A DNA stretch of 64,000 nt, taken from Oscillospiraceae bacterium. GTDB taxonomy: Bacteria; Bacillota; Clostridia; Oscillospirales; Ruminococcaceae. Under the pieces are notes generated by a model. That model was not told the origin of the DNA, made no database searches, and saw only the letters and a program-made list of their open reading frames with translations. The position numbers were made by a program, and so were the translations under genes. Positions 25,507 to 60,322 of the stretch are shown in pieces (the stretch's first letter is position 1; each line of letters opens with the position of its first letter). The stretch spans positions 46,745 to 110,744 of the forward strand of contig JAFRTG010000035.1 of NCBI GenBank assembly GCA_017427265.1, read 5' to 3'.

Positions 25507-28386
25507 TTATTTTACATGTATGATCTCATCCCACGTCGGGTCGAGATGAATGAAGCGATACGTGTAATAGCAAAGAATATATCTTGCATCACGCTGATCG
25601 GCTTTGCCGCTGTTGTTTACATCTGCGATTACCTTTTGCAAATCGTTGAAAACCGTTTCCTCAGACTGAATGAAGTTATAAACATAATAACGAAGTGCAA
25701 GATTTGCGTCTCTCAGGCTGATCTTCTGATCCATATCGCAGTCGCCGCGCAGATACACGGTGATTCCGGTTTTCACCTCGTTTTCCTTAAAGTAAGCTGC
25801 AATCTCCGAATCCTTTCCGGTATAGGTGAATCTGACGGAACCGCTTCCGTATTTTTCTGATGCGGCCGCAGCAGATTCCGGCGTTGCATTTGTCCTGCAG
25901 TCTGCCGTGATATCCTTTTCCACGACATCCCCGCCCTCGGAGATAAATGCAGAAGCTGTAAAATCGCCGGCAGCAAATGCTTTTTCGTCACTGAGCCAGA
26001 TATCGCGGTTCGGCTTCACAAATACAGCTGTACACGCTCTTTTATAAACCGGCGCATCCTTCTGGAAAACAACGGAAAGCGTATGATTTTCGCGGACATC
26101 CGCAATCCGCACCTCATTCGTTGCAGAAACCGACTCTCCGTCCAGCAAAATCGCTGCTGTATGAAAGCCGTTCTCCGGGCGGATCGTAAAGATAGCGGTA
26201 CCGCCCTCCGCGACGCGGAATTCGCCGTCCGGCGAGATGCTGCCGCCCTCATTACAGGAAACCGTGATTGCATAGCTGGTCAGAACCGGAATTTTCTTGG
26301 TGCGGATCGCGCCGCATTTCGTACAGACAGAACGCTCCTCCCCCTGCTCCGTAATAGTCGCCTCACGGGTGACGCTCCATGCAGTCCAGTCATGTCCGGT
26401 AGCAGGAATCGAATCCGTTTCAACCTCACCGCAGTTTGAACAGGTACGGATCATAGTTCCGTCCTCCGTGCAGGTCGGTTTCTTGTCGGTTTTCCATTCA
26501 CCGAAATGGTGACCGGTCGCCGGGATTGTCTGATACTTTGCCTCGTGACAGCGTTCGCATTCGGAAATCATTCTGCCTTCTTTGGTACAGGTTGCGGGAG
26601 AATCAGTTTTCCATTCACCGAAGCTGTGACCAAGAGCCGGAATCTCGCTGTATTCCTTTTCGCCGCAGTTAGAACAGGTACGACTCAGTCTGCCGTTTTC
26701 GGTACAGGATGCCGGGACGTCGGTTTTCCACTCTCCGAAGTGATGTCCGGTTGCAGGGATTGATACCTGACGGACCTGATCTTCAAAAGCAGTGTTCTCA
26801 AATCGTGCAACATACTCCGCAGTACCGGCATTCACACAACCTGCTTCCGTTTTCACAACATAAATTGTTTTGACGGAAACCGTCTCGACTTCACCGCTGA
26901 CAGAATCCTTGCGTGAGGCGGTGCAGGACAGATTATCCGCAGACCACGTATACTCCGGCTTACTCCATTGGGAATTCAACGCAGGAATTTCAACGGAAAC
27001 TGTCTGTGTGCGGAACGGTGATTCGTCAAACACAGCCGTAAACCGCCCCTCGCCCGGAGTACCGACCTTGGCCGATGTCACGACTTCATAAGACGAAAGC
27101 ACTGTTTTCTGCCGGATGTCACCGCAGCGAGAACAGCTGATTTCGCCGGTGCAGCTTTCATGGGAATCAGACCATTTGTAAACAGGCTCAGACCAGCTGT
27201 GGCCGGTTGCTGCAATTTCCTTTTCCTCAGTCGTGCCGCACTTCGGACAAGTTCTGCGGCTGACGCCGGATTCCGTACAAGCCGGATTTTTAACTGTACT
27301 CCAGTCGGTCCAGCTATGGCCGGTTGCTGCAATTTCCTTTTCCTCAGTCTTGCCGCACTTCGGACATGTTCTGCGGCTGACGCCGGATTCCGTACAAGTC
27401 GGATCTTTTGCTGTGCTCCAGTCGCTCCAGCTGTGGCCAAAAGCCGCGATTTTCTCGGTTTCCGTCTCACCGCATCCGCTGCAGGTGCGAACCCGTTTGC
27501 CGTCTGTTTCACAGGTAGCAGGCGGATCTTCCTTCCATTCCGACCAGACATGCGTATGCTCCTTGTTGGAACGGAACGTCAGACCGGATGACTGTGCATA
27601 CGTCTGAGCTGCTCCGCCGGGGCTGCCGATCAGAACGGTCTTTCCGGGGGAATCGTCATAGCTTCCGACGATTTTTCCGTTGCTGACGGAGACATATTTA
27701 TAGTATTTTCCGATTGCGCCGTTTTCAATCGTCGTAACGGAATCCGGAATCTCAATCTCATGGAAACAGCACATGCCGAAAGCATTGCTCTTGAGTTCCT
27801 TCACGGATTTGCCGAGTGTGACAGTTTTGATATTCGTTCCGTAGAAAGCGCTTGCACCGATTGTAGTCACCTGATCCGGAATCACAATCTCAGTCAGTCC
27901 GACAGCGCCGTTAAACGCGCTGTTGCCGATCGTTACCAGTGAAGAAGGAAGTTCGATTGCCTTCAAAGATGTGCAGTACGAAAATGCATTGGCCGGAAGC
28001 GTACTCAGATTTTTTGGCAAACTGACGCTTTCCAGCTTCGCACAGTTATTTGCAAAATAGGCATTGAGCGTTGTGACGCTGTCTGCGAGCTTGACAGACT
28101 TCAGTTCACTGTAACCGCTGAATGCATTTACCGGAATCGTGGTAATACCGTTTTCAACCACAACGGATTGAATCTTCGCCTTATAAGGGCTCCAAACAGC
28201 TCTCGTCACAGTCCCCTGGCCGCTGATTGTCAGCGTACCGTTTTCCAGACTCCATTTCGCAGACTCGCCGCAGTTTCCGCTTTCTGCATAGACCTGAAAC
28301 AAGCCCGGCTGAAATACAGACAAAGCCACACTGACCGCCAGCAAGCAGCCGGCAGCCCGTTTTCTGATTGTTTTCCAGAATTTCAT
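25507..28386 (-). CDS. Secreted BspA-like leucine-rich protein with Cys-pair repeats and dockerin-like tail
   Basis: Large surface or secreted protein of 959 residues, start supported by GAGGGAG before the ATG. A signal peptide (to about residue 34) is followed by BspA-type leucine-rich repeats (about 35-255, with units such as LTEIVIPDQVTTIGASAFYG), then at least seven copies of an approximately 38-residue repeat (about 270-710) with the pattern W-x-x-W, C-T-x-x-G, C-x-x-C-G and I-x-A-x-GH. Next is a bacterial repeat segment (YAITVSCNEGGSISPDGEF) and a C-terminal dockerin-like pair (GDCDMDQKISLRDANLALRY and ADVNNSGKADQRDARYILCY). Such proteins are thought to bind surfaces or substrates; function here is unknown. 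Confidence 0.88.
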   Translation of the reverse strand: MKFWKTIRKRAAGCLLAVSVALSVFQPGLFQVYAESGNCGESAKWSLENGTLTISGQGTVTRAVWSPYKAKIQSVVVENGITTIPVNAFSGYSELKSVKLADSVTTLNAYFANNCAKLESVSLPKNLSTLPANAFSYCTSLKAIELPSSLVTIGNSAFNGAVGLTEIVIPDQVTTIGASAFYGTNIKTVTLGKSVKELKSNAFGMCCFHEIEIPDSVTTIENGAIGKYYKYVSVSNGKIVGSYDDSPGKTVLIGSPGGAAQTYAQSSGLTFRSNKEHTHVWSEWKEDPPATCETDGKRVRTCSGCGETETEKIAAFGHSWSDWSTAKDPTCTESGVSRRTCPKCGKTEEKEIAATGHSWTDWSTVKNPACTESGVSRRTCPKCGTTEEKEIAATGHSWSEPVYKWSDSHESCTGEISCSRCGDIRQKTVLSSYEVVTSAKVGTPGEGRFTAVFDESPFRTQTVSVEIPALNSQWSKPEYTWSADNLSCTASRKDSVSGEVETVSVKTIYVVKTEAGCVNAGTAEYVARFENTAFEDQVRQVSIPATGHHFGEWKTDVPASCTENGRLSRTCSNCGEKEYSEIPALGHSFGEWKTDSPATCTKEGRMISECERCHEAKYQTIPATGHHFGEWKTDKKPTCTEDGTMIRTCSNCGEVETDSIPATGHDWTAWSVTREATITEQGEERSVCTKCGAIRTKKIPVLTSYAITVSCNEGGSISPDGEFRVAEGGTAIFTIRPENGFHTAAILLDGESVSATNEVRIADVRENHTLSVVFQKDAPVYKRACTAVFVKPNRDIWLSDEKAFAAGDFTASAFISEGGDVVEKDITADCRTNATPESAAAASEKYGSGSVRFTYTGKDSEIAAYFKENEVKTGITVYLRGDCDMDQKISLRDANLALRYYVYNFIQSEETVFNDLQKVIADVNNSGKADQRDARYILCYYTYRFIHLDPTWDEIIHVK

Positions 28387-48727: not shown

Positions 48728-49876
48728 TTATCGCTTTCGATAATTCACAAAAACTGTCAGCTGCGTGTTTGATAATATAATATGATCTATGATATTCTGT
48801 AAACGAAACAAATCAACGGATACGCCGTCCGCCGTCAAGGCTTCTTCAATCTGTTCCAGTATCACGCGCAAGTCAGCAGAGACGCAGACACAGCCGTTTC
48901 CGCGTCTGCGACCGCCGCATAACAGTCTGTCGCCCGAAACAGTCATCCGGCTTCCGCAATGTCCGCAGAACACGCTCCCGGAAAGCCAGTGTGGCCTTGT
49001 GTGCCTATGCTGCCGCCGATTCAGAATTAACTGCACCGCGTTATAATCATCCTGAGAAACAATCGCTGGAATTTTCAGTTCGATCCATTCAGAGTGCGGT
49101 AAATGAAGTCTCCTGCTGTTTTTATAGCTGAATCGCTGCGTCCGGTGCAGATACATATTACCAACATATGCTGAATTGCGCAGAATACGCTGAACAGATG
49201 CAGTTGACCAGTGTCCCTTCCGGCCGCACGGCTGCGGAATCCCCAGCTGCTCCATGTAGTCTGACACCGCCTGAAGTCTGGCGGTGCGCTGATATTCAGC
49301 GAAAATCATGCGAATATGCTCTGCTTTTTCAGGCTCAATCACAATCCTTCCGCTGCATTTTATATATCCGTAGGGAAGACGCGCTAACGTACATATTCCG
49401 GCTTTTTGCCGCGCATAAACCGCAGCACGGACTTTACGGGAAATATCGCGTGCATACCAGTCGTCCATCATAGCGCGAATTGGCGAAAAATCATTCATAG
49501 CAGATTCAGTGCCCGTATCGACGCCGTCGCATACAGCAATCAACCGTACCCGGTGCATCGGAAACCATGATTCAAGAAGCTCACCGGTGTGCAGATAGTC
49601 TCTGCTCAGCCGCGATAGATCCTTGACAAGCACAGTGTGAATTTTGTCCTCCTCAATCGCCCTGAGCAGGGCCTGCAATCCGCTGCGGTTCCGGACTGTT
49701 CCGGAGATTCCGTCGTCAGCATACTCCGCGCATATTTCAATTCCGTTTTCCGCCGCATATTGTTGCAGAAACATGCGCTGGCTCGATATGCTTTCAGATT
49801 CGCTGCGACATTTTCCGTCATCCTTTGACAAACGCAGATAAACAGCAGCAGGGTTCGCATAATCCAACGCATTCAC
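48728..49876 (-). CDS. Serine recombinase with zinc-ribbon
   Basis: Site-specific recombinase of the resolvase/large serine integrase type. The 382 residues have the catalytic N-domain (VYLRLSKDD with the nucleophilic Ser, VLVKDLSRLSRDYLHTG), the recombinase domain (LPYGYIKCSGRIVIEPEKAE, WSTASVQRILRNSAYVGNM) and a zinc ribbon (SGSVFCGHCGSRM with a later CGG), but only a short C-terminal tail, so it is smaller than typical 450-550 residue integrases. The start is unclear: GTG at 49876 lies two bases from GGAGG, and TTG at 49867 eleven. It points away from the tRNA. No element of its own is evident, so it may be a remnant. Confidence 0.88.
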   Translation of the reverse strand: MNALDYANPAAVYLRLSKDDGKCRSESESISSQRMFLQQYAAENGIEICAEYADDGISGTVRNRSGLQALLRAIEEDKIHTVLVKDLSRLSRDYLHTGELLESWFPMHRVRLIAVCDGVDTGTESAMNDFSPIRAMMDDWYARDISRKVRAAVYARQKAGICTLARLPYGYIKCSGRIVIEPEKAEHIRMIFAEYQRTARLQAVSDYMEQLGIPQPCGRKGHWSTASVQRILRNSAYVGNMYLHRTQRFSYKNSRRLHLPHSEWIELKIPAIVSQDDYNAVQLILNRRQHRHTRPHWLSGSVFCGHCGSRMTVSGDRLLCGGRRRGNGCVCVSADLRVILEQIEEALTADGVSVDLFRLQNIIDHIILSNTQLTVFVNYRKR

Positions 49877-49949
49877 CGCCTCCTAAAGTCCAATAGAAAT
49901 TGATATTGTATACGACTTTTGTGCAACACGACGATTTTCACGCAACTTC

Positions 49950-49978
49950 TTGACATTTGACTTGATATATGATACAAT
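49950..49978 (+). promoter_or_regulatory. Promoter of the tRNA-fMet gene
   Basis: TTGACA (49950-49955), 17-bp spacer, TACAAT (49973-49978), ending 13 bases before the mature tRNA. Confidence 0.88.
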
Positions 49979-49991
49979 ATATTTGTCAGGA

Positions 49992-50068
<77 letters not shown>

Positions 50069-52610: not shown

Positions 52611-54008
52611 TTATAGTTGTATCAGAAAATACATCTCATTGGGCTGCAACACAAGTGAATCAGAAGGCGTAGCGGGAGGCAGCATCATGCCGTCAAATTT
52701 CTCAATGATCCTCTCTTTGATCTCTGCTATCCCCTGCATGACATCCTGCGCCAAAACTGATATACCATTAAAGTCAACCGCGTTCAGCAAGTACCCATTG
52801 CTAACGGCTGAAACTACCACAGGGTAAGGACAGGTATTCTGAACTGCAAACATATCGTCCATCAGAGCCATCCCCTCACGACGCTGCGTATCCAGCACAT
52901 GGGTATACGTATCAAGAGTGAATGATGTCGAAGCATGGCCGAGTAAAGCCGAAATAGTTTTGGCATCCATTCCGCGTTCCATAGCCCTTGTTGCAAAAGT
53001 ATGTCTTGTTGCGTGAAAAGTGAAGTGCCCAATTCCGGCAGCAGCCAGCATATTATTGTAGTAGTCTTTCAGTGTGCGTGGTTCCATAAATCCGCCCAAT
53101 TGATTTGTTAAAACAAACCCCGACGCTTCGTACTGTCCTGCATAGTTGGTCGAATCCTGCGCCTGTAAGCTTCGCCATTGGTAGAATTCCTTAACAACTT
53201 GCTGAATCAAGGGAATCATCCGAATAGAGTTCTTGCTTTTAGGTGTCTGGATCACTATCTCTGTCGAATTGCCGATACCGTCATAATCAACCTTTGACAA
53301 TCGCTGTAATGTCCTTCTGACATAAAGGCACCTATTGTTCAGATCAACATCTTCCCAGCGAAGTCCTGTGATTTCAGCAATTCGCATACCTGTTGCAAGG
53401 GCTAGTCTGACAAAGAAACCATAGCGATGCTGATACGAAACGGATACTAACCTGTTTTGCTGTTCAATGGTCATGACTTCAATACAAGGCTTATCTGCCC
53501 TTGGCAGCACAACACCCTCGCATGGATTGAACGCTATATAATGCTCTATTACCGCCTGATGCATCGCCTTATGTAGAAATCGGTTAATATTCATGATGGT
53601 TTTGGGCGATAATTCTTCTTCCTCTATCTTATAATTGTAGAAATCCTGAAGGAGTCTGGTTGTTAAGTCCTTGAGTTTCAGGTTCGGAAAAGCTGGCGCA
53701 AAATGCTTATCAATATAGCTTCTATACCCAATGAAGGTAGATTGCTTCAGTTTGTTCTTTTGGTATACATTGAGAAACAAGTTCAGCCATTCCAATAAAG
53801 TCGTAGAGGTTGGATCAACGACTTCTTTACAATGAATCTCGTATTCAAGTTTCCGCAGTTTTTCGATGACCTCCGCTTGTGTCTTTCCATAAACCGATAT
53901 ACGCTTTTTATCTCCTGAGCGGAAATCATATCCCGCTGTTGCTCGGCCTTCCCAGCGACCGTCACTGCGTTTCCGATAGGAGCCTTCGTTATTTGCTCTT
54001 TTAGCCAT
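52611..54008 (-). CDS. Tyrosine integrase
   Basis: Phage-type site-specific recombinase that likely integrates the element. The ATG at 54008 is eight bases from GGAGG; the one at 54014 is only two away. The 465 residues comprise an AP2-like arm-binding domain (SYRKRSDGRWEGRATAGYD), a SAM-like core-binding domain (LNLFLNVYQKNKLKQSTFIG), and the catalytic domain with Arg in ATGMRIAEITGLRWEDV, His-x-x-Arg in HATRHTFATRAMERG, His in LLGHASTSFT and the nucleophile Tyr in DTYTHVL. The C-terminal 90 residues after the Tyr are an unusual tail with no recognised motif. Confidence 0.94.
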   Translation of the reverse strand: MAKRANNEGSYRKRSDGRWEGRATAGYDFRSGDKKRISVYGKTQAEVIEKLRKLEYEIHCKEVVDPTSTTLLEWLNLFLNVYQKNKLKQSTFIGYRSYIDKHFAPAFPNLKLKDLTTRLLQDFYNYKIEEEELSPKTIMNINRFLHKAMHQAVIEHYIAFNPCEGVVLPRADKPCIEVMTIEQQNRLVSVSYQHRYGFFVRLALATGMRIAEITGLRWEDVDLNNRCLYVRRTLQRLSKVDYDGIGNSTEIVIQTPKSKNSIRMIPLIQQVVKEFYQWRSLQAQDSTNYAGQYEASGFVLTNQLGGFMEPRTLKDYYNNMLAAAGIGHFTFHATRHTFATRAMERGMDAKTISALLGHASTSFTLDTYTHVLDTQRREGMALMDDMFAVQNTCPYPVVVSAVSNGYLLNAVDFNGISVLAQDVMQGIAEIKERIIEKFDGMMLPPATPSDSLVLQPNEMYFLIQL

Positions 54009-54059
54009 TTGCATGACCTCCTCATTATATTTTTATATAATAGTTCATATTGTGTTATT

Positions 54060-54665
54060 TTAAAACGAATCATGCAGGAATCTATAATACGCCGACCGGG
54101 AAATCTTTAAGATCTTTATAGCCTGAGCGACCGTCAACTCTTTGGATTCAACCCTTTCCGCTATACTATCAAAATTTACGGGCTTTATAAGCGCAGGACG
54201 TCCGAGCTGAACCTTCCTTTTCCTTGCAGCTTCTATGCCTTCCCTTTGACGACTGCGAATCTTGTTACGCTCATTTTCTGCAATACTACCCAAGACTTCG
54301 ATTAGAATAGCATTGATCATATCCATGACCCACATCTGTTCATCGGGAAAGTCTGTGAGGGTGGTCGGAATATCCAGTATCTTGATACGCACACCGATAG
54401 ATTTGAAGTATTCCAACTCTGCTTTGATGTCACTCTTATTTCGGCTCAGGCGGTCAAGCTCTTTGATGACAAGCGTATCGCCTGCACGGAGAATCTGCCG
54501 CTTCAAATACTGATACCCCTCACGTTCAATATCCTTTCCTGAGCATTTGTCTACGATGATAATGTTTTCCGAAGGCACCCCGTATTTCGTCAAAGCTTCA
54601 ATCTGCCGGTCCTCATTCTGTTCACGACTGGATACTCTGGCATAACCATAAGTTCGATTCTCCAT
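54060..54665 (-). CDS. Small serine resolvase/invertase
   Basis: A 201-residue recombinase; the ATG at 54665 follows AAAGGAG and gives the conserved start ENRTYGYARVSSREQNEDRQ with the catalytic Ser. LVIKELDRLSRNKSDI, the C-terminal dimerisation helix (ENERNKIRSRQREGIEAARK) and a helix-turn-helix (TVAQAIKILKISRSAYYRFL) complete the fold. It may resolve or invert element DNA. It lies 51 bases before the integrase on the same strand. Confidence 0.93.
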   Translation of the reverse strand: MENRTYGYARVSSREQNEDRQIEALTKYGVPSENIIIVDKCSGKDIEREGYQYLKRQILRAGDTLVIKELDRLSRNKSDIKAELEYFKSIGVRIKILDIPTTLTDFPDEQMWVMDMINAILIEVLGSIAENERNKIRSRQREGIEAARKRKVQLGRPALIKPVNFDSIAERVESKELTVAQAIKILKISRSAYYRFLHDSF

Positions 54666-54757
54666 AATCGGCTCCTTTCTGTTCCAAAAAGTCCTTGCAT
54701 TTTTGGAATGCTTCAAAAGTCAAATCGGGACTTTTAGACACACTTTTTCGATAAAAA

Positions 54758-54797
54758 ATGAACCGTCCCAAAAGGTATACTTTTTGAGACGGTTCAT
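54758..54797 (-). terminator. Terminator of the amidoligase-GATase operon
   Basis: ATGAACCGTC (54758-54767) pairs with GACGGTTCAT (54788-54797); inner CAAAA/TTTTG pairs extend the stem with one mismatch. On the minus strand the stem is followed by TTTTTTATCG, so it ends the leftward GATase transcript. Confidence 0.85.
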
Positions 54798-54814
54798 GAT
54801 TGATGTTTCGGATG

Positions 54815-55771
54815 TTAAAATCCCTCGCAGAATACTTCCTCAAATGACTTCGGATTCATGATGAATTCCTCAATCTCGGACAAACTGTAGCCCATCTCAT
54901 AGAGATTCATCACTTCATCCTCATCCACGCCGAAATACCCGCAAAGTTCGATCAGGGCAGCGTAGCTGTTATCAAATTCGGTATTATCGTCCGTGAGGGT
55001 ACCCCATCCGTACAAACCGGACGGGAAGAAACGGAAGCTATGCCAGTCATCTTCTTTAGGTGTGAATTTTCCGCACTGAACATTTCCGCTGCGGTCAATG
55101 CGCAGAATATCCCCTTCCTTCGTTTCAATCTCCACATGACGAAACTTATGCAGGTGTACAGTCTTCAGCGCCTTATTCATGATCTCCTTTGTCGAAGCGT
55201 AAACATAAAGCTGAAGCTCAGGGAAGTGAACAAGATACAGCGGATTACAGCCCTTTACCAGCCAAACCGTGTTATAAACATCGAGCAGTGCAAAGGTATA
55301 GCTGCCCCGAAGTTCTTCCGCAACGGTCTTGAGCGAATCAAACGAGATCCTCTTATGCTCTTCCAGAAGCTGAACCGCAATATAGCTGTCGGTTTCAATG
55401 TTCGGCTCAGGCAGATTATGCTGCCTGCGAAGCTCGGCATCGTTATAAATCACGCCGTTATGAGTCAAAGCAAAGGGTGTACCAGCGATGCCCTGAAACG
55501 GATGATTATTATAGTTTTGGAGCTCGCTGCCCTGCGTCGTCATACGATTGTGGCAGATGACCGCTTCAGTGTTCATCGGGAAATAGAATTTCAGCTTCCG
55601 AGCTGGCTTCGGCTTCTTATAGATCACGATCTCACCTTTATTGACATAGCTGATACCTGTTGCATCTGTGCCGCGGCATTCTGCGGCGATCGTCAGAGCC
55701 TTCACCAGATGCAGCAAAACAGCATGCGGCACTTTATGTCCGTAGTTCAAAAATCCTGTAACAGCACACAT
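54815..55771 (-). CDS. Class II glutamine amidotransferase, stand-alone
   Basis: Ntn-type glutaminase of 318 residues that would release ammonia from glutamine. Cys2, exposed after Met removal (MCAVTGFLNYG), is the nucleophile; further family blocks are ECRGTDATGISYVNKG, ICHNRMTTQGS, FALTHNGVIYND and ETDSYIAVQLL. No synthase or isomerase domain follows; the last 80 residues are acidic and may bind the partner. The adjacent amidoligase gene ends two bases before its ATG, so they are coupled. Amidoligase/GATase pairs were described by comparative genomics (Iyer and colleagues) as enzymes that make unusual amide bonds; no product is known here. Confidence 0.9.
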   Translation of the reverse strand: MCAVTGFLNYGHKVPHAVLLHLVKALTIAAECRGTDATGISYVNKGEIVIYKKPKPARKLKFYFPMNTEAVICHNRMTTQGSELQNYNNHPFQGIAGTPFALTHNGVIYNDAELRRQHNLPEPNIETDSYIAVQLLEEHKRISFDSLKTVAEELRGSYTFALLDVYNTVWLVKGCNPLYLVHFPELQLYVYASTKEIMNKALKTVHLHKFRHVEIETKEGDILRIDRSGNVQCGKFTPKEDDWHSFRFFPSGLYGWGTLTDDNTEFDNSYAALIELCGYFGVDEDEVMNLYEMGYSLSEIEEFIMNPKSFEEVFCEGF

Positions 55772-55773
55772 AA

Positions 55774-56865
55774 TTAAACCTCATCCTCGACATTGACTTC
55801 TTCATTGATGTAGATTCGACGTTCCTTGAGATACTGGAGCAGCTCAGGTTCGGTCACTCCCGCTACGAAATCTGACCATGACTGTGATGAGATTTCATCC
55901 TCGGTCATGGTCAATGCAGTTTCAATAATACGATTCACAAACTGCAAGGTCGCATACAGGGTATTGACCTTCAAGGTACCGCGAAATAGTCGGAATTCTA
56001 TCGTAGCATAATTGCAAAGATTGACGGCAGCATAGCGTCCTGTGTTACCTTTTTTCGCCTTGTCCAGAATCTCCTTACCTGTCTTTTCCATGCCGTACCG
56101 TGCCGCCCACCGGTTCATATTATGCTGGCTGCGCCGTGAGAAGATGAAAAGCTCATTCCAGTGGAGTTCCACGAAAAACAGGATCCGCTCAATGACTTTT
56201 TCCTGCTCCTCATAATTCTCTCCGAGCGCATTGCGGTTCACATGCACATGAAGTCCGCAGGTCGATGTCATGTGAGACTTGTACCCAAGATTCACTGCCT
56301 TTCGCAGCACATCTTCCCAGTACATATTGTGCATATGATAATCCAGCGTCATCGGGTGCGTGACGATCTCAAAGCCGTCATCAAGGCTGCCATCGCTTTT
56401 GCAATAGATGTGTTCGCAGCGCATATTGGTTTCACCCTTGATTCTGCCTGCTGCTTCACTGTCTTTTCCGCCGCAGTCGATTTCAAGCTCCACGCCAAAG
56501 AACCGGTCGCCGTCACCATAGAAGATCGGGTCAGGCTTATACCCGTACTCCTCAATCTCGACATCCAGACGGTCGTAACAATGTTCGCAGTACGGATAGT
56601 CGTTATACCACAAAACTTCACCGTCATTCAGGATGCGCCCGCAGCTCTCACAGCGGCGATAGTGGTCATCAAAGCAGCAGGAGCAAAGTGTCGTGTGATC
56701 ATCACAAATTGAGTCGTTCGCCCAGATCACTTCACCGCAGTGATCACAGGTTGTGGTATGCTCATCATAGCAGGTCTGACACAGATGCTCGCCGTCGATT
56801 TCATAGTCTTCGTCATCATCGAGCTCATGATGACAGAGAAAACAGTATCTTCTTTCGTCTTCCAT
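55774..56865 (-). CDS. Amidoligase with N-terminal zinc fingers
   Basis: A 363-residue protein joining two parts. Residues 1-100 carry Cys pairs in treble-clef or LIM-like order (CFLCHHELDDDE, CQTCYDEHTTTCDHCGEVIW, CSCCFDDHYRRCESCGRIL, CEHCYD). Residues about 118-363 are an amidoligase domain of the glutamine-synthetase-like COOH-NH2 ligase fold, with FFGVELEID (metal-binding Glu), DGSLDDGFEIVTHPMT, CGLHVHVNR and TIEFRLFRGTL. It would join an amine or ammonia to a carboxylate, using ATP. The fused fingers suggest protein or nucleic-acid contact. The stop is followed after two bases by the GATase start. Substrate unknown. Confidence 0.88.
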   Translation of the reverse strand: MEDERRYCFLCHHELDDDEDYEIDGEHLCQTCYDEHTTTCDHCGEVIWANDSICDDHTTLCSCCFDDHYRRCESCGRILNDGEVLWYNDYPYCEHCYDRLDVEIEEYGYKPDPIFYGDGDRFFGVELEIDCGGKDSEAAGRIKGETNMRCEHIYCKSDGSLDDGFEIVTHPMTLDYHMHNMYWEDVLRKAVNLGYKSHMTSTCGLHVHVNRNALGENYEEQEKVIERILFFVELHWNELFIFSRRSQHNMNRWAARYGMEKTGKEILDKAKKGNTGRYAAVNLCNYATIEFRLFRGTLKVNTLYATLQFVNRIIETALTMTEDEISSQSWSDFVAGVTEPELLQYLKERRIYINEEVNVEDEV

Positions 56866-56889
56866 AGAAATACCTCCTGAAACAAAAAT

Positions 56890-56917
56890 AGCCTCCGCCG
56901 TTCAATCGGCGGAGGCT
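56890..56917 (-). terminator. Terminator after the DUF960 gene
   Basis: Perfect 11-bp arms AGCCTCCGCCG and CGGCGGAGGCT, six-base loop; on the minus strand followed by ATTTTTG. It lies between DUF960 and the amidoligase start, so some read-through may feed the amidoligase. Confidence 0.8.
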
Positions 56918-56923
56918 TTGTCG

Positions 56924-57208
56924 TTAATATTCGGATGCCAGCAGCATAGTACTGTGTTCTTCGCTGTCGATGACATACAGCTTCTCGGTAACGGGATTCT
57001 CGCTAGGAAACAGGTAGACCTTCTTGTATGCAGGTTCTTCTGACTCGTGGATGATCTGCTGCATACCGCCGAATGATGACAGCCTGAAAACTTGCAAATA
57101 GTCGGCTTCATCCGGAAGTCGATCGATGCAGTTCCAGATGAAGGTCTGCACCATAAGGGGAATCTCTGTCTGCACTCCGATTGTCAAATAGCGCGGATTT
57201 TTAAACAA
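56924..57208 (-). CDS. DUF960 family protein
   Basis: Matches the DUF960 family of small Firmicute proteins of unknown function: FKNPRYLTIGVQTEIPLMVQ, FIWNCIDRLPDEADYLQVF, EEPAYKKVYLF and the C-terminal HSTMLLASEY. I place the start at the TTG at 57208, six bases after GGAGGTGAG; this gives the family N-terminus (M/L-FKNPRY) and 94 residues. The ATG at 57229 would put that ribosome site inside the gene. It has its own promoter and leader, and shares a 19-bp leader motif with the small gene at 60466. Confidence 0.87.
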   Translation of the reverse strand: MFKNPRYLTIGVQTEIPLMVQTFIWNCIDRLPDEADYLQVFRLSSFGGMQQIIHESEEPAYKKVYLFPSENPVTEKLYVIDSEEHSTMLLASEY

Positions 57209-57287
57209 TGATCTCACCTCCAAGTTCATTTGTTATGTTCCCTATGATCCGCCTTTCGGCGGTTGACCCTATGCGGGTACCATGATC

Positions 57288-57306
57288 GTATCATCAGATC
57301 CTGACA
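57288..57306. repeat. 19-bp motif, copy 1 (leader of DUF960)
   Basis: GTATCATCAGATCCTGACA; 17 of 19 bases match copy 2 at 60705-60723. On the minus strand it starts about ten bases after the predicted transcription start of the DUF960 gene. Confidence 0.7.
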
Positions 57307-57323
57307 CGGAGTCATATCAATAA

Positions 57324-57352
57324 TATATAATTCATTTATTGGTGATTGACAA
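57324..57352 (-). promoter_or_regulatory. Promoter of the DUF960 gene
   Basis: Minus strand TTGTCA (57352-57347), 17-bp spacer, TATATA (57329-57324). The leader of about 110 bases also holds a small CCGCC-TTT-CGGCGG hairpin (near 57250-57262). Confidence 0.65.
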
Positions 57353-57426
57353 ATTCGGAATAGTTTGATTGTCATTCGCATCATACAAATGCTATGAGTC
57401 TGAAGTGCATTTTAGCCAATTTCCGC

Positions 57427-57455
57427 TTGACACAGAAGGCGTTTTATGCTAAAAT
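57427..57455 (+). promoter_or_regulatory. Promoter of the HerA/FtsK-like gene
   Basis: TTGACA (57427-57432), 17-bp spacer, TAAAAT (57450-57455), about 117 bases before the ATG. Confidence 0.8.
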
Positions 57456-57571
57456 AGCAATAGGATGAATAGTAAAACCGACGCTGATAAAGACAAATTG
57501 CAAAACAGTCATATGAATGATCAATGGGATACTGTTTTATCAACAGCTTGTTGTAAAGGAGGAGAATACGA

Positions 57572-60322
57572 ATGGATGACAGTCATTCGAACAATCATTC
57601 TGAAATAAAATCTGACCAGCAGCCCAATTTAATGGAACAGTTTACCGGAATTAAGAAAGGATTGATATTAGAAACCCAAGAGTACAAGGAGAAGAATTCA
57701 CTTCCTTCATTTCCGCAACAACCTCAGTCTTTTGTGCAACCAGAAATTATGAATCCCCCTCAGCAGATTATAACGGCACAAGGCGAAATAGAGAATACAG
57801 ATCAATTCTTCTTCTGGGAAAATGCCAATTCAATCATGGTTGCGATTGAAAAGACAACTCAGGTCGGTAAGGTAAACAGTCAAAACGTTTCTCAACACCA
57901 GTATCATTCCAAAGTCAAAGATAAAGTCTATACTCTGACATACTTTCGCATATGTTGTATTACAAAGTGTGTATATGAAGGATTGGAAAACGATCAGACT
58001 ACATTTAAAATAGAGTGCGTATATTGGGATAAAGCTAAAGCCTCAATGGAACCTCTTGAAATAGAATTTAACGAAGAATTACTGACAAATCATCAGCTTG
58101 TCCAGCATATCAAAAAAGCGTTCGGCAGTAAGCATGTACCATTTCCGGCTATCAACAGGGGGATTGACACAAATGAACTGCTGGTAGAGTATATTTTGCG
58201 GGAATATAGTAAAGACCCAAAAGAAGAACGAATTGATTGTTATTCTCTTAATTTGAAAGATACAGATGGTTTGAGTGACCCTGAAAGAAAATTGATTGTT
58301 CAAAATTTTTATCAGATATATCGTTTCTTAAACATGCAGTCCAAGCTACTGCTTACATGGGGATTTGGAACATTGTGTCTTGAGGATTTACTGGCTCTTC
58401 CCCTCAATATCATACCGGTTTTGAACAAAGTTATCATCATTTATGGCTGTCACGATACTGAACAGCAGGAATCAGCAGCCGCATGGGCAAGTGTGTCATC
58501 GGACATTATAGATATCAAACGTTTATCTGAGATCAAAGTGACATCGAAACAGGATGAACTCAAAACGATGTTCTTTCACTCTCGGGATCAGGTTGTATTC
58601 TTTGAAGATGATGACCTCAATGACTATTCTAGAAAACAAAATCGTATGAAGATTCATCGAATTTCTGAACATGTTTGTAACGGGCTCTTCAGAGAAAATA
58701 AGGAAACAATTGATTGCGCCACTGTAATCTTCACCCGCAGAAAACTTATTGAATTCAAGGATATTGCAAAGGAATGTATTTTTATCAATGCTGCTGGTTT
58801 GTCCCCAGCCGATTGGAAATGCCAGGATATTATAGCAGATTTTATCAGTCTGCTATATGATAATATCGGCTATTATTTCGAGCATCAGAAAAACGACTTA
58901 ATTTCACATCTCTTACGCACGACCTATTCCCGGGATACAAATCAAATTGAAATAGTGTATGAGATTTACACCTATCTTGTAAATGCGATGTTTGAGACTT
59001 ATGGCATAGCAGAAAGCAGTGAAAGCAAGCAATCAGCCAGTCAAACTCAAACCGTAAAAAGCACAAGTAGGATTACAGCTTTTCTAATTCAAAGCCATCT
59101 GTTGCTTAAAGAGAAGACAATTTGTGATCGGTTTGTCAGGCAGATAAACCAATTCATTCAAGCAGAAAGAGTAACTGTTCGGCTGTATGACAGAAACCTT
59201 TCTGTATCAGATCAGGCTTTGCTTTATGAGCATCAGGGTGAACCGCTGTTACTGTTTTCAAACAGCTATTTTGATGAGCTGTTCGCCTCATCTGTTGTGG
59301 AAAACAAAAATTTGATTCGGATATTAAATGAGGGCGGTCATCTTTTTATCAACTATCTGGACAAGCAATGCTTCAGGATGCCTATAGACGAACGGAAACT
59401 CTACACGGCTGTAAAGCTGTCTGCGCTGGAGGAAGAGACGGTCAGTAGGCTTCCCGAACTACATCCCGTTATTGTGCCGGATATGAATGACGGCATTGCC
59501 CGAATTAATATAGGTAGCGATAAATATGGAAGGCAGATCTACTGGCCTATCGGAAAGCTAGAGAATCGTTCAGTACTGGTACAGGGAAATACACGAACAG
59601 GTAAGACATATTTCGTGACCACAAGGCTGCTGACAGGGTTGCATGAATTAGGATATCGTATCATTGTATTTGACAGCGAAGCATCCAGTTACAACCGGTA
59701 CGAGCTCAGTAAATGCAAATATGATGAGGCGTTCATTGCAGAGCATTTTTGTCATGGTCAAGCCGAGACTGCGGAAGAGATCATGAAGGAGTTCGTGAGT
59801 TCTCTTGATAAGATTTATATTGTAAACAATCAAATCGATGACAATGAGAAGATTAAATTATGTAAGCTGCTGTTTGATTATCAAAAGAGGATATTCGCCG
59901 AAAACGAAAAAGATACTCCTCCCCTGTTTATAGTATTTGAGGAAGCAGGCGATAATTCTAAATCACAGGATATCCCCGTCTATGATACCGACTCTGTGAA
60001 ACGGCTTTATAATCAGGGTAGTAAGTTACGTCTAAGTGTCATCACAATTCTGCAAATGTTTATCGGAAAGGGATCGCGAAATTTCCAAAGAATGGTTGCG
60101 CAGAGCGGACTGAAAGTAGCTTTCAAGTGCAGCACGGATCATATCAAATATTTTATCGAAACTATTCCGCCTAAGTTTAGGGAGTACGCAAAGAATAGAT
60201 TGCCTATGCTTGATGTAGGCGAAGCGTTCATCTCTGGCGACTTTGAAGATTCAGACGGTACACTCCATGCACATTGTTTTCTTGTAAATTCAAAAGCAGC
60301 GTCACCGCTTTTGAAAAAATAA
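57572..60322 (+). CDS. HerA/FtsK-like ATPase with degenerate N-terminal ATPase-like region
   Basis: A 916-residue protein; AAAGGAGGAG precedes the ATG. The C-terminal third is a RecA-fold DNA-pump-type ATPase: Walker A QGNTRTGKTYF (about residue 671), Walker B LFIVFEEAGDN (about 786), and later LRLSVITILQMFIG, as in HerA/VirB4 proteins. The middle (about 290-440) may be a second, inactive ATPase: IIIYGCHDTEQQESAAAWAS lacks a P-loop, while VVFFEDDDLNDY and CATVIFTRRKL resemble Walker B and sensor strands, DUF927-like. The first 90 residues are Gln-, Pro- and Asn-rich. A role in DNA transfer or element maintenance is inferred; a defence role is not excluded. AT-rich composition suggests transfer. 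Confidence 0.75.
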   Translation: MDDSHSNNHSEIKSDQQPNLMEQFTGIKKGLILETQEYKEKNSLPSFPQQPQSFVQPEIMNPPQQIITAQGEIENTDQFFFWENANSIMVAIEKTTQVGKVNSQNVSQHQYHSKVKDKVYTLTYFRICCITKCVYEGLENDQTTFKIECVYWDKAKASMEPLEIEFNEELLTNHQLVQHIKKAFGSKHVPFPAINRGIDTNELLVEYILREYSKDPKEERIDCYSLNLKDTDGLSDPERKLIVQNFYQIYRFLNMQSKLLLTWGFGTLCLEDLLALPLNIIPVLNKVIIIYGCHDTEQQESAAAWASVSSDIIDIKRLSEIKVTSKQDELKTMFFHSRDQVVFFEDDDLNDYSRKQNRMKIHRISEHVCNGLFRENKETIDCATVIFTRRKLIEFKDIAKECIFINAAGLSPADWKCQDIIADFISLLYDNIGYYFEHQKNDLISHLLRTTYSRDTNQIEIVYEIYTYLVNAMFETYGIAESSESKQSASQTQTVKSTSRITAFLIQSHLLLKEKTICDRFVRQINQFIQAERVTVRLYDRNLSVSDQALLYEHQGEPLLLFSNSYFDELFASSVVENKNLIRILNEGGHLFINYLDKQCFRMPIDERKLYTAVKLSALEEETVSRLPELHPVIVPDMNDGIARINIGSDKYGRQIYWPIGKLENRSVLVQGNTRTGKTYFVTTRLLTGLHELGYRIIVFDSEASSYNRYELSKCKYDEAFIAEHFCHGQAETAEEIMKEFVSSLDKIYIVNNQIDDNEKIKLCKLLFDYQKRIFAENEKDTPPLFIVFEEAGDNSKSQDIPVYDTDSVKRLYNQGSKLRLSVITILQMFIGKGSRNFQRMVAQSGLKVAFKCSTDHIKYFIETIPPKFREYAKNRLPMLDVGEAFISGDFEDSDGTLHAHCFLVNSKAASPLLKK

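Follow-up and report, generated by a model that had tools for sequence, protein, structure and literature searches.

A Zinc-Fingered Amidoligase Paired with a Class II Glutaminase on Mobile Elements of Oscillospiraceae: A Candidate Protein- or Peptide-Amidating Enzyme

Within a 64,000-nt stretch of DNA from an Oscillospiraceae bacterium (contig JAFRTG010000035.1, 46,745-110,744), called here the window and numbered by its own positions, three consecutive minus-strand genes encode a DUF960 protein, an amidoligase fused to zinc fingers, and a class II glutamine amidotransferase (GATase; hereafter, the glutaminase). We found that the amidoligase and glutaminase genes lie side by side in other genomes and in phages, with their active-site residues kept, and the pair is probably, to judge from sequence and modeled structure, a glutamine-fed enzyme that amidates a carboxylate on a protein or peptide. 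Pairs of this type are already known by prediction; the zinc-fingered version carried by mobile elements and a hairpin between the DUF960 and amidoligase genes look new.

Results

Linkage of the amidoligase and glutaminase genes

An earlier, sequence-only reading of this DNA described a glutaminase without a synthase domain coupled to an amidoligase, and proposed a survey of co-occurrence as a check. In 295 genomes of the same order (matches accepted up to E values of 1e-10 for the ligase and 1e-20 for the glutaminase branch), the ligase was present in 22 and the glutaminase in 21, all within those 22. By genome, co-presence of the pair gave p = 3e-31 and that of DUF960 with the amidoligase p = 5e-10, values that are too small since genomes of one order are related. 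The glutaminase was adjacent at 34 of 37 ligase places; two of the other three start at a contig edge, and the third (genome G138) has a short glutaminase piece beside the ligase. Seen from the other gene, the ligase was adjacent at 34 of 35 glutaminase places, the exception lying at a contig edge. We also examined the best 80 loci of a scan of contigs from other genomes (Ruminococcus, Oscillospiraceae or Clostridia/Clostridiales) and the best 79 viral loci. The two genes were adjacent on the same strand in 76 of the former, with two at contig edges and two without a glutaminase (L099 and L113, the latter retaining a 27-residue remnant), and in 63 of the latter, with the glutaminase elsewhere in the locus in five, missing in nine, and two at edges. 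Six loci (L005, L182, L188, L189, L197, and L198) kept the amidoligase core with no counted fingers or glutaminase detected in the stretch examined; L005 is a Clostridioides difficile phage, and the ligases of L188, L189, L197, and L198 are 77-100% identical to its own.

The finger-bearing branch is rare phylum-wide, with 3 carriers among 398 genomes, two belonging to the same order, and 11 Ruminococcus genomes have 1 to 8 matches each, fragments included. The window's genome holds a second copy (contig C23) whose ligase is 73% identical but whose glutaminase is 49-50% identical, so the module's two genes need not share a history. Divergence of the ligase core and the glutaminase was nevertheless correlated (partial r 0.48), and no ligase-glutaminase fusion was found among the collected proteins. 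It is extremely improbable that the three genes are unrelated cargo lying together by chance, and for the pair this is nearly excluded: DUF960 lies away from the pair at 9 of 26 places and the pair's neighbors vary between elements, but the pair is kept at the places and loci counted above, its divergence is correlated, and the hairpin described below recurs.

Active-site residues and predicted folds

Pfam searches assigned the window glutaminase to GATase_6 (E 6.7e-12; 46 bits against a cut-off of 27) and the ligase to Amidoligase_2 (PF12224; E 1.9e-6; 28.4 against 22 bits). No synthase domain was matched 3' of the glutaminase domain in Pfam and NCBIfam searches, as the sequence-only reading had it; NCBIfam gave partial GlmS, PurF, and asparagine synthase matches, far under the cut-offs. 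Cys2, R76, N105, G106, and D128 were invariant in 46 of 46 glutaminases, and by comparison with GlmS and PurF we take the Cys, Arg, Asn-Gly, and Asp to be glutamine-site or catalytic residues. By these residues the window protein reads as a class II GATase. Its model (predicted local distance difference test, pLDDT, 89.6) matches the glutaminase domains of GFAT, GlmS, and PurF. A UBA-like identity was considered for the acidic, helical C-terminal tail and dropped, the Pfam matches being sub-threshold and found in some homologues only.

In the ligase, E126, E128, D158, S160, H206, H208, E290, and R292 were invariant in 73 sequences. By comparison with glutamylcysteine synthetase (GCS), these are presumably catalytic, the acidic residues and histidines serving metal and ATP. 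The model (pLDDT 92.6) matched GmaS, type III glutamine synthetase (GS), YbdK, glutathione synthetases, and Dop/PafA in Foldseek; phage amidoligases and one "LIM domain protein" are among its top matches in BFVD, and PHROGs placed the ligase in phage family phrog_16683, of unknown function (E 5e-106). As modeled, the window ligase has a GS/GCS-like fold with conserved acidic and histidine residues. Loss of catalytic residues had been named, along with a lack of co-occurrence, as an outcome that would tell against the proposed system. It was looked for in four alignments (A1 to A4; n = 26, 27, 73, and 46) and the residues were kept; since the genes also co-occur, neither outcome arose. Broken copies, some of which exist, are absent from these alignments because they were built from full-length or nearly full-length sequences.

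Class II glutaminases release ammonia, and amide formation by GS/GCS enzymes proceeds by way of an acyl phosphate. By the chemistry of these families, the pair should turn a carboxylate into an amide. We infer that the products of the two downstream genes are the two chains of a single enzyme, in which the glutaminase would release ammonia from glutamine with its N-terminal Cys (Cys2 as encoded), while the amidoligase would activate a carboxylate with ATP and then join the handed-over ammonia to it, yielding a carboxamide. The folds also suit a different product, a small amide metabolite or gamma-glutamyl-type compound: the closest solved structures include GmaS, YbdK, and glutathione synthetases, and another module of the same genome combines an amidoligase with a gamma-glutamyl cyclotransferase (GGCT). 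We consider such a product unlikely. No biosynthetic partner appeared among the annotated recurrent neighbors of the finger branch, and the varying number of fingers in phage arrays (see below) suggests docking to a macromolecule.

An acidic finger array

The twelve finger cysteines (Table 1) were invariant in 26 of 26 same-order sequences and at least 99% conserved across 103 paired modules; in a wider ligase alignment that includes phages (n = 73), eight were at least 90% conserved and four were invariant. The fingers had been called LIM-like, which is fair, whereas "LIM" is not, since the LIM match (PF00412) scored 19.8 bits, under the Pfam cut-off of 22.9. A LIM domain is two fingers with a two-residue spacer; the window ligase has three, seven residues apart. 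The modeled fingers do match the LIM pairs of LMO2 and PINCH-1, and LIM pairs bind mostly to proteins. The finger array suggests a protein partner.

Across 103 paired homologues the net charge of the finger region averaged -20.3 and was negative in every one (range -29 to -13); the window value is -23. Finger number varies among phage arrays, in a tally of rows with a core motif; the 52 phage arrays with at least six CxxC motifs carry 6 to 14 of them and have a mean charge of -19.6, the most positive being +6. Zinc fingers often bind nucleic acids, and a ligase that modifies a nucleic acid held by its fingers was weighed, but fingers this acidic disfavor nucleic acid as a target and their best structural matches are LIM pairs, leaving that explanation very improbable. 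The suggestion of the sequence-only reading that the fingers might bring the ligase to a nucleic acid is not supported. The array would more plausibly be a protein-docking part, for the protein or peptide substrate, for the glutaminase, or for both.

Docking of the glutaminase can be set against the distribution of the two features. Proteins were clustered at 50% identity, those under 200 residues or without the core motif being dropped, and 36 of 37 clusters had a usable locus. Of these 36, 24 had both fingers and glutaminase, two fingers only, six glutaminase only, and four neither, a weak association (p 0.04); some of the six glutaminase-only clusters appear to be affected by the simple rule for the core-start motif. 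Since clusters exist with one and not the other, finger docking of the glutaminase is not general. Co-divergence of the fingers and the glutaminase tail beyond that of the core was small (partial r 0.12).

Positions at least 90% conserved make up 17% of the fingers versus 36% of the core. Median ratios of nonsynonymous to synonymous substitution (dN/dS) were about 0.05-0.09 in all four parts, at dS near saturation (46 of 80 sequences, compared in 65 pairs; 36 to 65 usable per part), which indicates purifying selection. The idea that the fingers are fast-evolving target selectors was rejected: residues between the cysteines vary, yet finger dN/dS is as low as that of the core, and there is accordingly no sign of diversifying selection on the fingers.

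DUF960 and a recurrent hairpin

DUF960 (PF06124) matched the first gene of the module at E 6.1e-25 (88 bits against a cut-off of 25). The sequence-only reading had bounded the module at 54815..57208, and three minus-strand frames do lie there; the DUF960 gene, however, ends at 57229, and 57208 represents an inner start or rounding. Its suggestion that DUF960 may belong to the system holds in part. In the same-order sample, 14 of the 295 genomes have DUF960 and 10 of these also have the ligase, and 17 of the 26 DUF960 places are within 2.5 kb of a ligase, which makes it a likely partner; it is also optional, being found at 17 of 37 ligase places. Among the best 80 genome loci, 73 have DUF960 somewhere in the locus; of the 79 that could be placed, 54 have it directly upstream and 14 have it downstream. 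A DUF3846-type gene (family assignment checked on one member) is upstream in six loci and downstream in one of the same-order sample. Because DUF960 is frequent near the ligase while elsewhere a DUF3846-type gene stands beside the pair, it is a usual but replaceable companion, frequent and not obligatory.

The DUF960 and amidoligase genes are separated by 58 bases, and the amidoligase stop and the glutaminase gene by two. In 47 of the 50 modules with DUF960 directly upstream (window included), a 40-base stretch between DUF960 and the ligase folds at -14 kcal/mol or below, compared with 20 of 500 in shuffled sequence and, as a control, 9 of 49 at the ligase-glutaminase junction; related loci enter this count more than once. 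The arms comprise 31 distinct sequences over the modules, so that structure is kept while sequence varies; as the best stem per region they pair by construction, and it is their diversity and the shuffle comparison that carry weight. A looser rule (-10 kcal/mol plus four T nearby) was passed by 40 of 49 loci. Within the 90 bases read per module (116 in the window), 48 of 50 modules contain GGAGG. The hairpin may be a leaky terminator, passing part of the transcripts into the enzyme genes and thereby setting a low ratio of enzyme to DUF960, which would keep the enzyme scarce.

Mobile carriers of the pair

The placement of the module on a mobile element is supported by its surroundings, which include an integrase, a resolvase, a weakly matched HerA/coupling-type ATPase, and a DEAD-type helicase below the cut-offs (Table 1). 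Among the matches listed, the small resolvase is ~66-72% identical to resolvases beside the same pair in Ruminococcus elements, and homologues of the 805-aa helicase occur near the pair in L115, L124, and L040. No relaxase or NikA is in view in the window, which ends at the contig end, so that the far end of the element is out of view. Window positions 54000-58000 were unmatched in plasmids at the DNA level; at the protein level, six plasmid records had the ligase core. A large serine recombinase gene (48728-50068) adjoins a tRNA-Met gene and may mark where a second mobile element ends. A tRNA was the sole Rfam match in the window at gathering scores, and a BspA-type leucine-rich repeat protein is encoded at 25507-28386.

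Table 1. Features of the module and its surroundings, by window position
Feature	Position	Strand	Remarks
DUF960 gene, 101 aa	56924..57229	-	first gene of the module; open reading frame list and Pfam
Terminator-like hairpin, 11 pairs (9 G-C), then ATTTTTG	56890..56917	-	between DUF960 and amidoligase; -25.8 kcal/mol, z -6.9
Amidoligase residues 1-103, three Cys4 fingers, acidic	56557..56865	-	C8/11/29/32, C40/43/61/64, C72/75/93/96
Amidoligase_2 gene, 363 aa	55774..56865	-	core ~residues 104-354; predicted GS/GCS fold
Class II glutamine amidotransferase gene, 318 aa	54815..55771	-	Cys2 expected nucleophile; synthase domain not matched
Glutaminase residues 230-318	54818..55084	-	linker modeled at low confidence, then an acidic helical tail
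Strong terminator-like hairpin, 16 pairs	54758..54797	-	3' of the glutaminase gene; -22.5 kcal/mol, z -6.4
Small serine resolvase	54060..54716	-	downstream context
Tyrosine integrase	52611..54014	-	downstream context
Probable HerA/coupling-type ATPase, 916 aa	57572..60322	+	divergent from the module; weak matches only
DEAD-type helicase/primase-like protein, 805 aa	61058..63475	-	matches below Pfam cut-offs

The pair is carried by relaxase-bearing elements, by islands resembling the staphylococcal cassette chromosome (SCC) with CcrB and Cch1 homologues, and by phages. A NikA-like gene lies upstream and divergent in 35 of the best 80 loci, its orientation the same in 35 of 35, and 32 of these 35 have a small relaxase-domain gene in the same divergent upstream placement (PF21983 and PF03432, each assigned on one member); a small resolvase lies 3' of the pair in 23. 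This arrangement brings to mind an anti-defense operon of the leading region, first into the recipient during conjugation. The gaps between NikA and DUF960 (e.g., in L075, L125, and L136) contain a nic-like TTGCAGG (CCTG^CAA when read from the opposite strand), which a short inverted repeat adjoins in some loci, and the region is likely the origin of transfer (oriT) of this small-relaxase element family. CCTG^Y is the MOBP consensus. In a scan of the first 700 bases of each gap between the NikA-like gene and the module, coding parts included, T[TA][GA]CAGG occurred in 25 of 35 gaps against a shuffle mean of 2.7 (23 gaps if L067 and L072, in which the motif was judged by eye to lie inside DUF960, are left aside); the mirrored motif occurred in 1 of 35 (shuffles 2.6), and none of the 35 had ATCCTGY on the other strand (1.9). 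The strand of the motif would put the operon last, and this polarity of a putative nic disfavors an entry role. Ligase, glutaminase, and DUF960 also matched none of the PADLOC families at E 0.01. Leading regions are described as rich in anti-defense genes (passages of PMC11541004), but amidoligase, DUF960, and DUF3846 are absent from the main text of that paper, and an entry operon seems to us quite doubtful.

Of the 14 loci (among 79) with DUF960 downstream, 13 have a large serine recombinase, 12 DUF1643, and 9 a Cch1-like helicase. The recombinase representative is closest to CcrB; one representative each scored 193 bits against the SCC-level cut-off of 900 for CcrB and 122 against 700 for Cch1, and these Ruminococcus relatives are homologues, not equivalog members. 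L078, L080, L082, L093, L098, and others, from Ruminococcus and relatives, are SCC-like islands with CcrB-like, Cch1-like, DUF960, and DUF1643 genes, far from staphylococci. A DUF1848 gene is found in 13 of the best 80 loci (e.g., L106 8364-9320); 11 of the 13 have a NikA-like gene too, with DUF1848 between it and the module.

A DUF4314 gene separates ligase and glutaminase in 11 of the best 80 loci. The window's genome has a third, dissimilar amidoligase (contig C32), accompanied by GGCT and DUF4314. Of 60 GGCT-type loci in which 1.8 kb or more of sequence lies upstream of the amidoligase, 57 have DUF4314 there (4 of 80 loci having no placeable amidoligase). DUF4314 was rejected as a partner specific to the module: used as bait it recovered amidoligase-profile matches in 5 of 30 loci, two long and three mainly on the last ~70 profile positions, and it is thus a wider mobile-element domain. 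A literature search found no paper on DUF4314. Long phage amidoligases (L165, L168, L167, L177, and L179) have extra C-terminal stretches resembling small beta-barrel repeats, with one Tudor-like Pfam match below cut-off; a profile comparison of DUF4314 with this extension was not significant.

Discussion

The evidence presented here favors the view that the finger-bearing amidoligase and its glutaminase together amidate a carboxylate of a protein or peptide. Several observations weigh against this view. The ligase model aligns to GS/GCS enzymes with low TM scores (0.27-0.38, normalized by query length), the dN/dS analysis suffers from nearly saturated dS, and the six glutaminase-only clusters, mostly phage, as well as the two with fingers and no detected glutaminase, loosen the tie between fingers and partner. 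The hairpin might attenuate, fully terminate, or shield the ribosome site. Finally, 5 of 22 same-order loci (L047, L051, L054, L056, and L058) have a gene for an SLH-domain surface protein a few genes or less away from the pair, one protein with an M23 peptidase domain and one with a phosphoesterase, which would suit a cell-wall target.

In a cell-wall role, the pair would act like MurT-GatD or AsnB/LtsA, amidating peptidoglycan precursors and altering the wall, for instance to keep out phages or other elements. Since peptidoglycan precursors are cytosolic, no export would be needed. However, the SLH proteins are unlike one another in composition, strand, and distance from the pair and may belong to host flanks, and among the 14 annotated neighbor clusters, those found in at least eight of the best 80 loci, none is a known cell-wall gene (one had no Pfam match). 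A small precursor needs no acidic three-finger array, and MurT-GatD itself combines a class I glutaminase with a Mur ligase fold. Although cell-wall change with superinfection exclusion is a published suggestion for phage amidoligase modules (passages of PMC10580990, PMC11945000, and PMC11318856), we regard it as a rather unlikely function of the present pair.

Returning to amidation of a protein or peptide, a more specific proposal can be offered tentatively, as a possibility that we hold to be well short of probable: the fingers would pick a host protein, the ligase would amidate one of its carboxylates and so switch a function of the host or of a rival element, and the hairpin would keep the enzyme scarce. 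If the pair does act on a protein or peptide, the finger branch would be compact, with two genes and no further enzyme required. Since the branch is compact, strictly paired, and present on several kinds of mobile element, the question of what such pairs amidate can be tested with two or three genes.

The sequence-only reading put the module forward as a candidate for an undescribed system, which was too strong. By their adjacency and common direction, the window genes fall among the predicted amidoligase-GATase systems; adjacent genes of this kind are present in phage records, and such pairs were discussed in 2009 (Iyer et al., as cited in PMC10580990 and PMC11318856) and are named without a proven product in the passages cited here. 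Among the papers listed, in a search with subscription literature mostly outside it, titles and the beginnings of abstracts gave no zinc-fingered amidoligase-GATase module of mobile elements, led by DUF960 or otherwise.

Phage pairs are among the closest known systems. Mycobacterium phage Marvin (gp105-gp106), Methylophilales phage MEP402 (gp06-gp07), and podovirus ctgrD200 have an amidoligase and a class II GATase adjacent on the same strand, with ligases 26-31% identical to that of the window. Marvin and ctgrD200 share cysteine clusters before the core. The phage finger arrays differ from that of the window; the glutaminases of all three were missed by BLAST with the window glutaminase and needed a profile of their own, and BLAST found no DUF960 in the phage loci examined, unlike the window. 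The amidoligase-GGCT prophage module, found in the window's own genome (contig C32, L001) and in viral contigs (L232-L311), also uses Amidoligase_2. GGCT was present in 75 of its 76 loci with a placeable amidoligase (80 examined), but 0 of 77 such amidoligases had at least four CxxC before the core and 0 of 77 had a detected GATase within 5 kb. GatCAB, GlmS, PurF, and asparagine synthetase B likewise join a glutaminase to an amide- or amine-forming partner. The window glutaminase domain is of the GlmS/PurF type by model match, whereas its synthase is a separate protein of predicted GS/GCS fold with fingers. The LUZ24-like phage module (amidoligase, GATase, ATP-grasp, and COOH-NH2_lig) places Amidoligase_2 and a class II GATase in one early region and has more ligases than the window pair (passages of PMC3890496); a related module with GGCT has been proposed to modify peptidoglycan (passages of PMC11945000). 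In staphylococcal SCC, DUF960 and DUF1643 lie beside ccr, DUF960 also being beside a uracil-DNA glycosylase inhibitor gene (passages of PMC12540322). In the Ruminococcus relatives the pair is accompanied by homologues of CcrB and Cch1, whose scores fall far short of the SCCmec equivalog cut-offs, and the window element carries a tyrosine integrase in place of ccr.

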